From a virus, in the IMG/VR virus record IMGVR_UViG_3300044846_000615, positions 1 through 30,630 of that record: a stretch of 30,630 nt of DNA. The stretch is one strand, 5' to 3'. Numbering within the stretch: position 1 is the stretch's first letter; each line of letters begins with the position of its first letter. A model generated the notes under the pieces. That model had not been told where the DNA came from. It was given only the letters and a program-made list of their open reading frames with translations, and did no database searches. The translations under genes were made by a program, and so were the position numbers. Below are positions 15,380 to 20,019 of this stretch, piece after piece.

Positions 15380-15748
15380 ATGTCTATTTCCAATTATGCA
15401 GAGTTAAAAATTTTGGAGCACACGACAGGTAAAACTGCGTGGACTATGCCTACGAACGTGTATGTGAAACTGCATTTGGGTGACCCTGGTGAGGCTGCTA
15501 CTTCTAATGCGGCTGTTGAGGCGACTCGTAAGGTTGCTGCGTGGGCTACTGCTGCGTCGGGTTCTATTGTGACTTCTGGAACGATTGAGTGGACTAACGT
15601 TTCGACTACTGAAACTTATTCGCATTGGTCTTTGTGGGATGATGTTTCTGCTGGTAATGCTTTGTGGTCGGGTGCTTTGGCTACTACGGCGGCTGTGACT
15701 GCTGGCGATACTTTTCAAATCACGTCACTTACGTTGACGCTGGACTAG
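15380..15748 (+). CDS. Virion-associated fibre-type protein (LHLGDPGE family)
   Basis: This 122-aa protein has a beta-rich layout common in phage structural genes. It runs from YVKLHLGDPGEAATSNAAVE near residues 27-46, through alternating strands, to ETYSHWSLWDDVSAGNALW, ending in a strand-rich TFQITSLTLTLD. Proteins of this type are often annotated as tail-fibre or minor tail proteins in environmental phages, though their exact place in the particle is not known to me. The ATG has a ribosome site (GAAAGG) and stands first after the extended -10 promoter. Codon use here is T/G-ending, unlike the head genes upstream. Confidence 0.8.
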   Translation: MSISNYAELKILEHTTGKTAWTMPTNVYVKLHLGDPGEAATSNAAVEATRKVAAWATAASGSIVTSGTIEWTNVSTTETYSHWSLWDDVSAGNALWSGALATTAAVTAGDTFQITSLTLTLD

Positions 15749-15762
15749 GAAGGTAGCCCTTA

Positions 15763-15999
15763 GTGGCAACAGGTTTTCCTACTTCGCTTGATGCGTTGAC
15801 TAATCCGCTTTCTACGGATGCGTTAACAAGTCCTTCTCACGCTGACCAGCATGCTGATGTGAATGATGCTGTTGAGGCGTTGCAGGCTAAAGTGGGTGTG
15901 ACTGCTTCGGCTGTTGTAACCAGTTTGGATTATAAGGTTAATAAACCGTTGAACTCGGATGTTTTGGCGGCAATTATTTTGATGGACGTCGGGAGTTAA
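15763..15999 (+). CDS. Short fibre-associated protein (PTSLDAL-HADQHADVNDAVEAL type)
   Basis: This 78-aa protein begins at GTG with a strong AGGAAGG at 15747-15753. It contains the phrases FPTSLDALTNPLSTDALTSP and HADQHADVNDAVEALQAKVG. This motif pair is frequent at the N-termini of phage tail fibres, where it forms a trimerising helix. Here it is a free-standing gene of 78 residues instead of a domain of a long fibre, so the fibre appears to be built from separately encoded pieces. It lies between two other small structural genes with 2-14 base gaps. Confidence 0.82.
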   Translation: MATGFPTSLDALTNPLSTDALTSPSHADQHADVNDAVEALQAKVGVTASAVVTSLDYKVNKPLNSDVLAAIILMDVGS

Positions 16000-16001
16000 T
16001 T

Positions 16002-16337
16002 ATGGCATCGGGTGACAGAGTTGAATCTAGGTTGGGTGGTCCTGTCCAGTTGGGTACTTCGACTACAACTATTTGTACTGCGGCTTCGGGTGTCACTGAG
16101 GTTATTAAGCAGATTGTTATTTGTAACACGGATACGGTTGACCGTACTGTGACTTTGGCTATTGGTTCTGCGGCTACTGCTGCGAATCGTTTGATGTCTT
16201 CGTTGCCTATTGGTGCGAATGATGTGATGGTTTGGGATACGGCACTTGTGTTGTTGACTGGTGAGACGTTGCAGGGTTTGTCGGATACGGCTTCTAAGGT
16301 GACGGTTACTGTTGTCGGTTGGGAAAAGACCAACTAG
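16002..16337 (+). CDS. Small beta-sandwich virion protein
   Basis: This 111-aa protein is built from alternating hydrophobic and polar residues (QIVICNTDTVDRTVTLAIGS) that predict a compact beta-sandwich, with a final WEKTN. Proteins of this shape are common beside tail-fibre genes and are often called minor tail or fibre-associated proteins. No enzymatic motif is visible. The ATG follows GGGAG at 15991-15995. Its end lies two bases before the start of the collar-domain protein, so the two are likely translated together. Confidence 0.78.
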   Translation: MASGDRVESRLGGPVQLGTSTTTICTAASGVTEVIKQIVICNTDTVDRTVTLAIGSAATAANRLMSSLPIGANDVMVWDTALVLLTGETLQGLSDTASKVTVTVVGWEKTN

Positions 16338-16339
16338 TT

Positions 16340-17008
16340 ATGGGTTTGTCTGTCGGTTTGGGTAATGTGACTCAGGTGCCTGCTGGTATTGTGTCGGCGT
16401 TTGCTGGTGTTACTGCTCCTTCTGGCTGGTTGATGTGTTACGGACAGGCTGTTTCTCGTACAGAGTATTCTGCGTTGTTCACTGCGTTGAGTACGACTTA
16501 TGGTTCGGGTGATGGTTCTACTACTTTTAATATTCCTGATATGCGTGGTCGTGCTGTTGCGGGTGTTGACAATATGGGTGGTACTGCTGCTTCACGTTTG
16601 ACAAGTACGGTTCTTACTGCTTCTAATACTTTGGGTGCTACTGGTGGTACACAGACTCACACGTTGGACATAAGCCAAATACCTTCTGTTGCTTCTGCCA
16701 CTCATAGGCACGATTTTAAATTTGCATTAAACGATAATTACTATCAACCATCAGGAACTGCTGGTGCCATGACTGGTTCGGGTGCGTATAGATACTCTAC
16801 TGGCGCATATCAAAGTTCAAGTGCTGATGGCAGCGTCACCGATACACGCCAAGACGCAGGTGCAGAAACAATATCAAGTGGTAGTTCGGGTAGGTATGCC
16901 ACAATTGGCGATACGCAAACACCATCTGCAACTGCTGGCGGCGGCACAGCCCACTTGAACACGCAACCAACGATTGTTTTGAACTACATTATTAAGGCAA
17001 CACAATGA
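16340..17008 (+). CDS. Tail-collar domain fibre protein
   Basis: This 222-aa protein carries a phage tail collar domain at about residues 14-72: PAGIVSAFAGVTAPSGWLMC, then YGSGDGSTTFNIPDMRGR. The rest is Ser/Thr/Gly-rich with a HRH motif after the collar and the typical closing strand NTQPTIVLNYIIKATQ. Collar domains occur in short tail fibres and receptor-binding proteins. The ATG at 16340 is preferred over a TTG at 16319 because the latter overlaps the preceding gene and adds seven residues unlike the family. Codons change from T/G-ending to A/C-ending in the second half. The stop overlaps the endonuclease start as ATGA. Confidence 0.9.
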   Translation: MGLSVGLGNVTQVPAGIVSAFAGVTAPSGWLMCYGQAVSRTEYSALFTALSTTYGSGDGSTTFNIPDMRGRAVAGVDNMGGTAASRLTSTVLTASNTLGATGGTQTHTLDISQIPSVASATHRHDFKFALNDNYYQPSGTAGAMTGSGAYRYSTGAYQSSSADGSVTDTRQDAGAETISSGSSGRYATIGDTQTPSATAGGGTAHLNTQPTIVLNYIIKATQ

Positions 17009-17034
17009 CTATTTCTGCTACTACACAAGGGCTA
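17005..17034 (+). repeat. Ten-codon start duplicated at the endonuclease, upstream copy
   Basis: Codons ATG ACT ATT TCT GCT ACT then ACA CAA GGG CTA encode the same ten residues as 17631-17660. All nine codons after ATG differ in the third base between copies. This copy uses the T-rich codons typical of the neighbouring fibre genes, so it is probably the ancestral start. Confidence 0.9.
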
Positions 17035-17630
17035 AAAACATGCAACAGGTGCAAAGCAGAACAACCGTTGTCAAGTTACAGCGTTAGAACTAACGGCAAA
17101 TACTTATCGAAATGTCGACCATGCCTTGCAAAAGCATCAGCCAATTACCGTGCCAACAACAGAGAAAAATATCTTGCCGACAAGAGAGCAGCATATAAAA
17201 AAAGACAAGAAAAAACTTCTTGCGCAGCGACTTCTTTCAACTGGGACAATCTTTCTATTAACCAAAAAGAGGCAAGTGGATGTGGAATCTACTGCATAAC
17301 CATTAGTGATTATTTTTACATTGGTTCTTGTGTGAATTTTAATGACAGAATGTATGACCACACTCGGAAACTTGGTTACGGTAAGCACGTAAATCGTTTT
17401 ATGCAAAATGTGTTTAACAAATACAAAACATTTGACGCTGAGTTAATTGAGTCATGTTCCCCATCTGAACTTGCATTTACCGAACAACGCTATATCGACC
17501 AGTGGTTTGGTCATAAAAATTGTTTGAACCTGCGACCGAATGTAAAAACTATGCTTGGATTTAAACATAGCGAAGAAACAAAAAAGAAATTATCTGCTAT
17601 TTTTAAGGGTGTAAACAGTAGGAGTCCAAA
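17005..17630 (+). mobile_element. Homing endonuclease insertion inside the fibre operon
   Basis: The element separates the collar gene from the fibre gene to which the duplicated start belongs. It brings its own Shine-Dalgarno for the downstream gene (AGGAG at 17620-17624, six bases before the ATG). Removing 17005-17630 would join the collar stop directly to the fibre start and restore the same ATGA junction. The element boundaries are inferred from the duplicated ten-codon start. Confidence 0.7.
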
Positions 17631-17634
17631 ATGA
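17005..17634 (+). CDS. GIY-YIG homing endonuclease with zinc knuckle and NUMOD3
   Basis: This 209-aa protein has the domain order of a phage homing endonuclease. C13/C16 and C37/C40 form a zinc-ribbon-like knuckle, followed by a basic linker (about 45-70). The GIY-YIG nuclease comes next (G94-I95-Y96, Y105-I106-G107, R115 and likely catalytic E160). A NUMOD3 DNA-binding motif near 185-202 (GFKHSEETKKKLSAIFKG) ends the protein. It would cut fibre genes lacking the insertion and copy itself by repair. The first ten residues, MTISATTQGL, are identical to those of the next gene, so it appears to use the fibre gene's original start signals. It is free-standing, not in an intron or intein. Both ends keep a four-base ATGA overlap. 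Confidence 0.93.
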   Translation: MTISATTQGLKTCNRCKAEQPLSSYSVRTNGKYLSKCRPCLAKASANYRANNREKYLADKRAAYKKRQEKTSCAATSFNWDNLSINQKEASGCGIYCITISDYFYIGSCVNFNDRMYDHTRKLGYGKHVNRFMQNVFNKYKTFDAELIESCSPSELAFTEQRYIDQWFGHKNCLNLRPNVKTMLGFKHSEETKKKLSAIFKGVNSRSPK

Positions 17635-17660
17635 CCATCTCGGCAACAACTCAGGGACTC
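17631..17660 (+). repeat. Ten-codon start duplicated at the endonuclease, recoded downstream copy
   Basis: Codons ATG ACC ATC TCG GCA ACA then ACT CAG GGA CTC encode the same peptide as 17005-17034 with every degenerate codon changed. The next three codons (AGG CAG GGC) share this style. Then the gene returns to T-ending codons (GTT TGT ACT), placing the apparent boundary near 17669. Confidence 0.9.
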
Positions 17661-18287
17661 AGGCAGGGCGTTTGTACTTCGTCTAATAGACCTGTGACAC
17701 CGTTTGAGGGTCAAATGATTTATGAGACTGATACCGATTTGACTTACATTTATGGTGGGTCGGCTTGGCAGCAGGTGTCGGGTGGTACCGCTGTCGGTAA
17801 CTCAGGGCTGGTATATGTCGCTGGCGCTAGTTTTTCGGCAGTCACAGAAATTTTGCTTGACTCTGTGTTTACTTCCACATACCGTAACTACCGTTTTATT
17901 TTTGACTGTCGAAGTTCTGCTGGTGGTAACATATTCACATGGCAGGTGCGTTCTGCTGGCTCTACAATTTCAACTGCTACTTATCGTTATCAAACGCTTA
18001 ACATAAGTGCAGGTACGGTTACTGGAGGAAATGCTTCAGGTGCAGGAAGCATGAGAATTGGCGCAAACGATACTTCTGCCTATCATGCGATGACTATGGA
18101 TATTTTTTGTCCTCAAATTGCGCAACCAACAAGAACTATTTCTGCTTTTAATCGTGACAGCGGACTTACGGTAGAAAATGTTTGGGGTTCACATACCGAA
18201 TCAACATCGTATGACGGTATGAGAATTGCTGTTGCAAGCGGAACCATGACTGGTTCCTACGCTCTCTACGGATGCAGGAACTCCTGA
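17631..18287 (+). CDS. Fibre protein with GVCTSS-anchor module, first copy
   Basis: This 218-aa protein starts MTISATTQGLRQGVCTSSNR. Residues 13-50 are an attachment module (GVCTSSNRPVTPFEGQMIYE, then a GGSAW strand) found at the N-termini of many environmental phage fibre proteins. From about residue 55 the sequence is a beta-rich Ser/Gly/Thr domain ending in ALYGCRNS, presumably the variable or receptor-contact part. It is the gene interrupted upstream by the endonuclease. The ATG follows AGGAG at 17620-17624, which lies inside the endonuclease gene. The stop overlaps the next likely start (TGATG). The next gene carries the same module, so this is a tandem pair with different C-termini. Confidence 0.85.
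   Translation: MTISATTQGLRQGVCTSSNRPVTPFEGQMIYETDTDLTYIYGGSAWQQVSGGTAVGNSGLVYVAGASFSAVTEILLDSVFTSTYRNYRFIFDCRSSAGGNIFTWQVRSAGSTISTATYRYQTLNISAGTVTGGNASGAGSMRIGANDTSAYHAMTMDIFCPQIAQPTRTISAFNRDSGLTVENVWGSHTESTSYDGMRIAVASGTMTGSYALYGCRNS
17709..17731 (+). repeat. 23-bp direct repeat in the fibre anchor module, copy 1
   Basis: The 23 bases are identical to 18374-18396 in the next fibre gene and encode the GQMIYETD part of the attachment module. Identity at DNA level, in contrast to the diverged flanks, suggests recent duplication or exchange between the paralogues. Confidence 0.85.
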
Positions 18288-18895
18288 TGCCTCTTAGTTC
18301 TGTTGTTGGTGCGCAATCGATTATTAAACCTGGTGTGTGTACGTCGTCTACTCGTCCTGCTGTGCCGTTTGAAGGTCAAATGATTTATGAGACTGACACG
18401 GATGTGTTGGCTATTTGGAACGGGTCGGCTTGGCGACAGTTGGCGGCTGCGGCAGCAACATCAGGTTCAGTGCTACAAGTCCAATCAACAACCGTTACAG
18501 CACAACCAACTACCAGCACTGCTTCAATGACAGACATTACAGGAATGACTGTAACAATTACACCTAAAAGTTCAAGTAGCAAAATTTTAGTGACAGGCAT
18601 GTTTAATATTGGTATGGATTCCACGGATGATATGTGGTTCAACCTTGTTCGTGGTTCAACGGCTTTGACTGGAACTGGTACGACTTGGTATCAACGAGGT
18701 AACGCTTTTAGCAACCAAACGCTTCACGTAATGCCTTTTCCAATTAACTATTTGGATAGTCCTGCAACTACTTCTGCAACCACATACAAATTACAGTGGC
18801 ATCCACGGGTTGGAAGTTTGTCTCTCAATAAAAGATACCTTGATACAACGGTAGGTCTTGTTAGCACTATCACAGTTACGGAAATTGCTGGGTAG
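18287..18895 (+). CDS. Fibre protein with GVCTSS-anchor module, second copy
   Basis: This 202-aa protein has the same attachment module as the previous gene (GVCTSSTRPAVPFEGQMIYE, then NGSAWRQL), here beginning about residue 15. It is followed by a different beta-rich domain: MTDITGMTVTITPKSSSSKI, and a later YKLQWHPRVGS strand. The C-terminal domain resembles the general layout of short phage adhesin domains and may bind a surface glycan or protein, but no catalytic motif is seen. The ATG at 18287 overlaps the previous stop by one base and follows AGGAA. An ATG at 18272 would add five residues inside the previous gene and is less likely. Confidence 0.85.
   Translation: MPLSSVVGAQSIIKPGVCTSSTRPAVPFEGQMIYETDTDVLAIWNGSAWRQLAAAAATSGSVLQVQSTTVTAQPTTSTASMTDITGMTVTITPKSSSSKILVTGMFNIGMDSTDDMWFNLVRGSTALTGTGTTWYQRGNAFSNQTLHVMPFPINYLDSPATTSATTYKLQWHPRVGSLSLNKRYLDTTVGLVSTITVTEIAG
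18374..18396 (+). repeat. 23-bp direct repeat in the fibre anchor module, copy 2
   Basis: Identical to 17709-17731. It marks the module shared by the two neighbouring fibre genes and could serve as a recombination site for swapping the downstream receptor-contact domains. Confidence 0.85.
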
Positions 18896-18898
18896 CAA

Positions 18899-19723
18899 AT
18901 GGCTACCCTCTATAACCAAACAGGATACACCTACAACCAAATAGGTGCAATCTACAACCAGGCTGCAATCGAACGCACAGCCACAGGTAGTGGTCAAGGC
19001 ACACAAACAGCCACCCAAAACTTCTTTACCACCCTCACCACCACAGCCACAGGCGACGGTTTAGGCACATCCAACAACAGCATCGTCGTCGGCTTACTAC
19101 GAACAGCGTTTGGTGCAGGTGGCGCAACCACATCCGACACAGCCGAATGGAACATCAACCCTGCAAGAACCGCCACAGGCACAGGCACAGGCGACGGTAC
19201 CGCTAACCGTGTAATCGTAAAACTTCGTGCAGCCACAGGTGAAGGCTTAGGAACATCCACTACACTCGGACTACATGTTGCACCACGAACTGCTACAGGC
19301 TCAGGCACAGGCACACAAACAGCCACACGTATCGTCACGGGCATCCGTACAGCGACAGGTTCGGGAACGGGAACGCAAACAGCGACAAGTATCAGGGGAC
19401 TATTTAGAGCATGCACAGGTACAGGTTTAGGAACACAAACAGCCGAATGGGACAAATCCCACATCTTCCGTGTCCCAGTTACCAGCACATATCCGTTCGC
19501 TCAACGCCTCGGCACATCTGGTGCTGACCGACTGTTCTCTTTCGTACCACAAGGTATACGCCAATACAACCTGTTCAAACTTACCGATGGCTCATACCAG
19601 ATAACTGACCCTCGTATGCCTGAACGCATAGTCAAGGTGTACTACGGTGGGCATGATAACTTCTTGGATGCTACTGAAATAGCAGAACTGACAGCAGCGG
19701 GATACGGAGCGAGCATAACCTGA
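18899..19723 (+). CDS. Repeat-containing fibre protein with a YYGGHD C-terminal module
   Basis: This 274-aa protein has three parts. Residues 5-25 have three seven-residue YNQ repeats. Residues 26-189 are eight repeats of 20-22 residues built on RTATGSGTGTQTAT followed by a short hydrophobic strand, which suggests an elongated Gly/Thr beta-shaft. Residues 190-274 are a compact domain ending TDGSYQITD, then VYYGGHDNFLDATEIAELTA. The last part recurs in the next gene. No catalytic residues are evident. The protein probably forms a shaft with a terminal domain in the virion or on its surface. Codons are A/C-ending, opposite to those of the fibre genes just upstream. The ATG lies three bases after the previous stop. 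Confidence 0.83.
   Translation: MATLYNQTGYTYNQIGAIYNQAAIERTATGSGQGTQTATQNFFTTLTTTATGDGLGTSNNSIVVGLLRTAFGAGGATTSDTAEWNINPARTATGTGTGDGTANRVIVKLRAATGEGLGTSTTLGLHVAPRTATGSGTGTQTATRIVTGIRTATGSGTGTQTATSIRGLFRACTGTGLGTQTAEWDKSHIFRVPVTSTYPFAQRLGTSGADRLFSFVPQGIRQYNLFKLTDGSYQITDPRMPERIVKVYYGGHDNFLDATEIAELTAAGYGASIT
18974..19465 (+). repeat. Eight tandem 20-22 residue Gly/Thr repeats (coding)
   Basis: Repeats begin at residues 26, 48, 68, 90, 110, 130, 150 and 170. Repeats six and seven have the same first 14 residues but use different third bases in ten of the 14 codons, so the peptide is conserved while the DNA is not. The other repeats vary more freely. Confidence 0.88.
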
Positions 19724-20019
19724 TGGCAACTTTTAGACCACCAACCGATGACTTTGTTGTACCAGTAATCATTTCCAGTGTTTACAATCAGGGACAACTT
19801 TCTAAAGAGGAACGGATGGCTAACCGTTTAGGTAATCGAATCACACCATCTGCCAGGGGTCGTAACATATATCTTTTAACAGATGGGTCATACACAGATA
19901 ACCAGCCTTCAACGTTTGCTGTTATATCCAAAACCTATTACGGTGGGCATGACATTGAGATTGATGCCACCGAGGTAGCATCGTTAACAGCCGCAGGATA
20001 CGGAGCATACATTTCGTGA
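19723..20019 (+). CDS. Small YYGGHD-module protein
   Basis: This 98-aa protein consists almost entirely of the terminal module seen in the previous gene: INSERT-free RGRNIYLLTDGSYTDNQPST followed by KTYYGGHDIEIDATEVASLT and AAGYGAYIS. It looks like a duplicated module freed from its shaft, perhaps an alternative tip or an assembly partner of the repeat fibre. Its N-terminal 40 residues (FRPPTDDFVVPVIISSVYNQ) differ from the other gene. The ATG overlaps the previous stop by one base (TGATG), and its own stop overlaps the GTG of the next gene (GTGA). Confidence 0.8.
   Translation: MATFRPPTDDFVVPVIISSVYNQGQLSKEERMANRLGNRITPSARGRNIYLLTDGSYTDNQPSTFAVISKTYYGGHDIEIDATEVASLTAAGYGAYIS

Follow-up and report, generated by a model that had tools for sequence, protein, structure and literature searches.

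Why should a homing endonuclease gene and the fibre gene behind it begin with the same ten amino acids, and spell them differently at every codon after the ATG? The question arises in a 30,630-nucleotide stretch of viral DNA (positions 1 to 30,630 of IMG/VR record IMGVR_UViG_3300044846_000615; hereafter the window), where an ORF of 209 aa at 17005 and one of 218 aa at 17631 each start with MTISATTQGL. Judging from the sequence comparisons described here, the locus very probably holds a free-standing GIY-YIG homing element that inserts into phage structural genes within their first 8-12 codons and carries a recoded 5' end for the gene that it interrupts.

One start peptide in two spellings

Codons 2 to 10 of the endonuclease read ACT ATT TCT GCT ACT ACA CAA GGG CTA, its opening 29 nt extending from the ATG to the CT of codon 10, while the fibre gene behind it uses ACC ATC TCG GCA ACA ACT CAG GGA CTC. 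The pairing noticed in the initial annotation is exact: the peptides agree at 10 of 10 residues, and none of the nine codons after the ATG is shared. Codon 11 also differs, being AAA (Lys) in the endonuclease and AGG (Arg) in the fibre gene. The accompanying argument from chance is less strong: approximately 2.4 matches are indeed expected when synonymous codons are drawn uniformly, but zero matches have a probability of about 5%, which by itself is suggestive at most. We refer to the upstream copy as captured and to the downstream copy as rebuilt; across all elements described below, the longest run common to the two is 6-9 nt.

The endonuclease scores above the Pfam cut-offs for GIY-YIG (PF01541; 23.2 bits versus 22.6) and NUMOD3 (25.9 bits versus 20.4), and Pfam finds neither a LAGLIDADG nor a Hint domain in it (Table 1). 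Residues R115, E160 and N175 do not vary in the alignment of endonuclease relatives, giving the catalytic domain the conserved Arg, Glu and Asn of GIY-YIG homing endonucleases. Pfam returns no match over the N-terminal region with cysteines C13, C16, C37 and C40, which we read as zinc-finger-like. Between copies of the enzyme, dN is lower than dS both within the element of the window, element 1 (0.006-0.008 versus 0.016-0.049, from few changes), and within a second element, element 2 of L005/L006 (0.008 versus 0.146), consistent with a maintained protein.

At the left junction, the TGA stop of the collar gene overlaps the captured ATG, as it does in the endonuclease-free alleles L009 and L019, and at the right junction the rebuilt fibre ATG overlaps the endonuclease stop (ATGA), so that translational coupling is kept on both sides. 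An AGGAG stands six bases 5' of the rebuilt ATG, within the insert; the equivalent site is AGGAG in L005/L006 and AGGAGG in L007, and is absent from the crassphage case described below. An intron-encoded endonuclease was rejected, as 16300-18400 has no Rfam match at E ≤ 1 and the fibre gene has its own start, and an intein was rejected on account of the separate ORFs and their stop/start overlap.

Table 1. Features of the endonuclease locus (positions in the window)
Feature	Position	Strand	Basis
Tail collar-domain gene, upstream	16340..17008	+	Pfam Collar PF07484, 81.9 bits
GIY-YIG/NUMOD3 homing endonuclease ORF, 209 aa	17005..17634	+	Pfam domains; dN < dS between copies
Captured native fibre start ATGACTATTTCTGCTACTACACAAGGGCT, now first endonuclease codons	17005..17033	+	Equals endonuclease-free starts
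Inserted mobile unit	17034..17666	+	Breakpoints by alignment with empty alleles
CxxC...CxxC zinc-finger-like region (C13, C16, C37, C40)	17041..17124	+	Sequence and alignment, motif reading
GIY-YIG catalytic domain	17284..17502	+	Pfam and alignment
NUMOD3 DNA-binding motif, predicted	17557..17616	+	Pfam
AGGAG Shine-Dalgarno-like site before rebuilt fibre start, inside insert	17620..17624	+	Sequence
Recoded fibre start: respelled codons 2-10, then AGG (codon 11) and CAG (codon 12)	17631..17666	+	
Fibre gene, 218 aa	17631..18287	+	Native DNA from 17667 (codon 13, GGC)

Endonuclease-free relatives carry the upstream spelling

Protein searches of IMG/VR yielded 7 endonuclease loci and 67 fibre loci as relatives. 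The initial annotation had proposed that the element took over the original start and rebuilt that of the fibre gene, and the empty (endonuclease-free) alleles support this: in relatives that share the collar and fibre genes, the fibre start has the DNA of the upstream copy, exactly in L009 and except for one codon in L019. The empty-allele start reads ATG ACT ATT TCT GCT ACT ACA CAA GGG CTT CGA CCA GGC GTT and equals the captured copy through base 29 in L009, L010, L011, L017 and L040. Further empty counterparts with the upstream version exist for the occupied loci L002/L003 (L017/L018) and L004 (L040/L041).

In the four occupied/empty comparisons (with L009, L019, L017 and L040), homology stops after GGGCT, an identical left breakpoint that defines one insertion site, and restarts at codon 13, GGC. 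The insert thus delimited contains the endonuclease body, a new ribosome-binding site and the recoded fibre start, and it displaces seven native bases, T CGA CCA; native CTT CGA CCA (L-R-P) has become CTC AGG CAG (L-R-Q). The claim that the fibre protein is kept unchanged consequently does not hold in full, given P12Q here and 3 residue changes in the L005/L006 element. Nor is the upstream copy written in T-ending codons throughout, as had been thought (ACA CAA GGG); its sequence is that of the native fibre start and nothing more.

The rebuilt spelling is rare. Its 29-mer has 4 exact matches in 2.9 million IMG/VR contigs, all of them adjoining this endonuclease. Of 43 distinct MTISATTQG start contexts without the endonuclease, 41 have more codons in common with the captured copy and two, L089 and L166, with the rebuilt one. 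The outcomes that would contradict the proposal, free relatives with the rebuilt codons or with a range of unrelated spellings at the fibre start, were not found in IMG/VR, the collection on which we judge rarity. Codons drawn from the pool of 43 contexts should match the upstream copy at 5.5 of 8 positions on average and would fail to match at any of them with a probability of ~2e-6, a value that overstates independence because the contexts are related; of randomly drawn pairs of endonuclease-free starts, 0.1% have no codon in common. As a control, the tandem fibre genes of L095 (7440, 7985) have the same start peptide and starts identical at 26 of 27 nt. Among neighbouring ORFs screened for the same first ten residues, this is the one further pair of whole gene starts. 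In the DNA examined of endonuclease-bearing contigs, no 48-nt native site remains (≥13 mismatches).

The insert lies behind three upstream genes

The same insert is found behind the collar gene in the window and L001, behind a fibre gene starting MGIDAAYGIGS in L002/L003 and behind a third gene in L004, and 17034..17666 is therefore a mobile unit. Together with its immediate edges, the unit is 97.8-98.5% identical across these contexts, and different fibre bodies follow it. Over 4.5 kb L001 and the window are 99.9% identical, and over 3.2 kb L002 equals L003, so that the independent contexts number three, not five.

A second endonuclease, of HNH type, is present in L002 (2631-3122) and in the matching stretch of L004, just 5' of a gene starting MASGDRV. 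It abuts the stop and the start of its neighbours, without start capture or rebuilding. Within the window, third-base usage shifts sharply between adjacent genes over 15380-20016, from T/G in 15380-16672 (T 50-62%) via intermediate usage in the second half of the collar gene to A/C in the gene at 18899 (A 36%, C 36%), which suggests a mosaic of recently joined modules.

Start capture recurs in other fibre phages

The L005/L006 endonuclease, 54% identical to that of the window, starts with MAISNNSTGL, and the fibre gene behind it with MAISNNARGS, every codon having been changed. Over its first 31 bases the endonuclease gene is identical to the empty allele L134 and has 2 mismatches to L106, and the match takes in the bases just 5' of the ATG. 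Of 29 such free starts, one ties, 28 are nearer to the captured copy and none is nearer to the rebuilt copy. In L007, a third endonuclease has captured ATGGCAATCTCTAGTAACGCAAC as in L101, with the first 23 bases equal; in the fibre gene, codons 2-7 are rebuilt and native DNA begins at codon 8. This comparison has one empty comparator, L101, whose upstream DNA is unrelated. The L007 endonuclease (1597-2244) lacks the N-terminal CxxC region and has a C-terminal helix-turn-helix (CENP-B_N) instead, so elements that share a kind of target appear to have exchanged DNA-binding parts.

As far as these alignments tell, the N-terminus of the endonuclease tracks the target gene and not the endonuclease phylogeny. 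The rebuilt stretches of the three fibre elements (E1, E2 and E3) differ from one another and arose separately, whether from one retargeted ancestor or by independent captures; with the crassphage case, at least four rebuilt segments look independent. A profile search of IMG/VR gave no endonuclease loci beyond the initial seven, a DNA search of the 4.3-kb region against named phages gave no match, and no relatives were found in bacterial and archaeal genomes.

A crassphage case

In the crassphages cr125_1 and cr114_1, a GIY-YIG gene 5' of a virion structural gene starts ATG ATT AGT AAT ACA GCT CAA A, which is the native structural-gene start in MT838674 (L215); the cr125_1 endonuclease holds ATGATTAGTAATACAGCTCAAA, as in L215. 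The structural-gene start of cr4_1 (L213) matches except for one codon, CAA versus TAG, which is read as Gln in these phages. Behind the endonuclease of cr125_1 and cr114_1, the structural gene starts ATG ATA TCA AAT ACA TTT CAA. Compared with cr4_1, the first 90 nt of the cr125_1 structural gene agree at 63 of 90 positions and the next 1,260 nt examined are ~99% identical. The recoding runs well past the captured bases and several residues are changed. These features, together with a different GIY-YIG gene in the comparator cr4_1, make the case strong but less clean than element 1. At this junction, two different GIY-YIG genes lie 5' of one structural gene (L213:270-989 versus L202:1935-2600), one of which captures the start and the other does not.

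Start capture was not seen in cr56_1, cr112_1 and cr109_1, nor in a survey of Xanthomonas and Pseudomonas phages (5 of 5 GIY-YIG genes with a gene next behind), and the majority of GIY-YIG relatives checked in named phages lack it; capture is thus not general. Another short start capture is possibly present in cr6_1 (L216:791-1504, 1483), where MEINK (GAG ATA AAT) opens the endonuclease and MEINS (GAA ATC AAT) the structural gene after it, a four-residue resemblance (MEIN) that is weak and that we do not count.

Proposed mechanism and alternative explanations

The transmitted unit would comprise the endonuclease body, an ATG and the recoded N-terminal codons of the interrupted gene, to which the fibre cases add the Shine-Dalgarno-like site. 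During co-infection, the enzyme would recognise and cut the conserved native start in an endonuclease-free genome. As the junctions suggest, repair would then copy the unit in, with the native start and the sequence upstream of it as the left arm and the conserved fibre N-terminal module as the right arm. The outcome is visible in the DNA: the old start codon opens the endonuclease in frame, and the fibre restarts at the rebuilt ATG. Since the two starts share no run longer than 9 nt, the occupied allele would no longer be a target, would offer only one usable left arm for repair and would escape deletion via recombination between direct repeats. The native fibre start would then be a defined target and the rebuilt start its matched, presumably resistant allele.

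The origin of the respelling is where an alternative deserves most attention. The rebuilt start may be a capture from a diverged phage, taken out of its fibre gene together with the endonuclease or earlier, cut resistance being a by-product of the divergence, as has been suggested for fungal mORFs; we take this seriously but do not favour it. The L089 start (ATG ACC ATC TCA GCA ACG ACA CAG GGC) agrees with the rebuilt copy at 4 of 8 codons and at all but 4 of 27 nt, so that the rebuilt copy lies nearer to L089 (4 nt) than to the captured copy (8 nt), and L166, like L089, is an endonuclease-free start nearer the rebuilt version. Third-base T, at 9% in the 11 rebuilt codons, is unlike the 46% of the fibre body, and foreign gene ends are the proposed origin of the fungal mORFs of Glomus and Allomyces (PMC3630166). 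However, the rebuilt version is not known from any free allele, the free start closest to the rebuilt copy of element 2 is still 7 of 27 nt away, and in all three fibre elements the recoding ends almost where the duplication ends, which a random foreign tract need not do. It is rather unlikely that the recoding serves stability alone, perfect repeats leading to deletion of the element, so that copies with diverged repeats alone persist, and resistance being irrelevant with the target already split by the insertion. In every element the shared runs are indeed shortened to 6-9 nt from 29 nt, and the fibre regions recombine freely, as one unit with different fibre bodies attests. Yet a native start left unrecoded downstream would restore the whole target, so that sequence does not tell resistance and stability apart, and element 1 respells every possible repeat codon, beyond what is needed to block recombination.

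Two further readings have much less in their favour. Tuning of fibre translation at the new start through codon choice or RNA structure, unrelated to homing, would fit the strong Shine-Dalgarno-like site that every fibre element supplies 5' of its rebuilt start, but we think it very improbable: the predicted start folding of element 1 is similar in both states, -11.0 kcal/mol when occupied versus -10.6, -9.0 and -12.2 kcal/mol when empty, and all repeat codons are changed, including those far from the ATG. Least credible of all is a replacement event, in which the endonuclease took the place of the body of an adjacent fibre paralogue with the same start peptide, the two starts being old paralogues. 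Tandem fibre-gene arrays with shared N-terminal modules do exist, but the tandem starts of L095 are nearly identical. Moreover, the gene order of empty L009 is collar, MTISATT fibre, MPLSSVVG fibre, with a single gene at the empty site and both breakpoints inside the start of that gene. This order indicates insertion of a gene and not replacement of a paralogue, and on this ground the two-paralogue reading was rejected.

Comparison with known systems

The start-capturing element proposed here has counterparts at the 3' ends of genes. In WHO elements of Torulaspora and Lachancea yeasts, each homing exchanges the 3' end of FBA1 for a resistant version, which allelic differences in sequence protect from cutting (Coughlan et al. 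2020, PMC7282813). Both transmitted units include a diverged part of the target gene, which stays functional, resistance being presumed from sequence in the phage element. WHO elements, by contrast, are intein-derived LAGLIDADG zinc-finger proteins that act on the 3' end of one nuclear gene and leave displaced 3' fragments, whereas the phage element is a GIY-YIG enzyme that takes the 5' end and start codon of structural genes, the displaced start becoming its own N-terminus. Fungal mitochondrial mORFs also carry diverged gene 3' ends (Allomyces atp6; Glomus atp6, atp9, cox2 and nad3; Beaudet et al. 2013, PMC3630166), with 63.5% DNA identity between the atp6 copies and a GIY-YIG enzyme in the atp9 case (PMC3630166). 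An endonuclease between two gene-end copies that are conserved in protein and diverged in DNA is likewise what we find, here at the 5' end. The mORFs differ in concerning C-terminal (3') ends, for which a foreign origin is mainly invoked, as opposed to the N-terminal end, and, unlike the phage element, have neither start-codon capture nor a rebuilt ribosome-binding site.

The synthetic HomeR drive carries a re-coded stretch of 22-27 residues of its target gene (PMC7968924). There too, a recoded target stretch on the drive allele keeps the protein and no longer matches the nuclease target, although HomeR is CRISPR-based, made for an insect and placed at a gene 3' end, whereas the phage element is natural and sits at a 5' end. 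This suggests that phages arrived at the recoded-rescue design of synthetic gene drives. On balance, we lean towards start-capturing homing endonucleases being a recurrent class in phages, with more than one origin (fibre phages and crassphages), and a natural counterpart of home-and-rescue.

Free-standing endonuclease genes in phage genomes are familiar from T4-type phages, where such enzymes, some of them GIY-YIG, are described as spreading via double-strand-break repair (PMC2988022). A term search of that review found neither synonymous recoding nor tail fibre targets mentioned, a search of another phage homing endonuclease paper (PMC10448857) returned nothing on synonymous recoding, and word searches of the open-access literature gave no phage precedent. 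With WHO elements and mORFs known at 3' ends, what appears to be new is the 5' end, the takeover of a start codon, the GIY-YIG enzyme and the location in phage virion genes. The locus shows how a homing endonuclease can sit within the first codons of a virion gene, without intron or intein, taking the start and giving a respelled one back, and annotators should be aware that such endonucleases bear fibre-derived N-termini.

The first 30-50 nt are nearly identical among fibre genes with different bodies in L095 (7440, 7985), L011, L040 and L042, suggesting that they may act as a recombination module for fibre exchange. Being conserved in several fibre genes, this start module would offer a multi-copy homing target, and because the target start is common to these genes, the element may shape the recombination of host-range genes.
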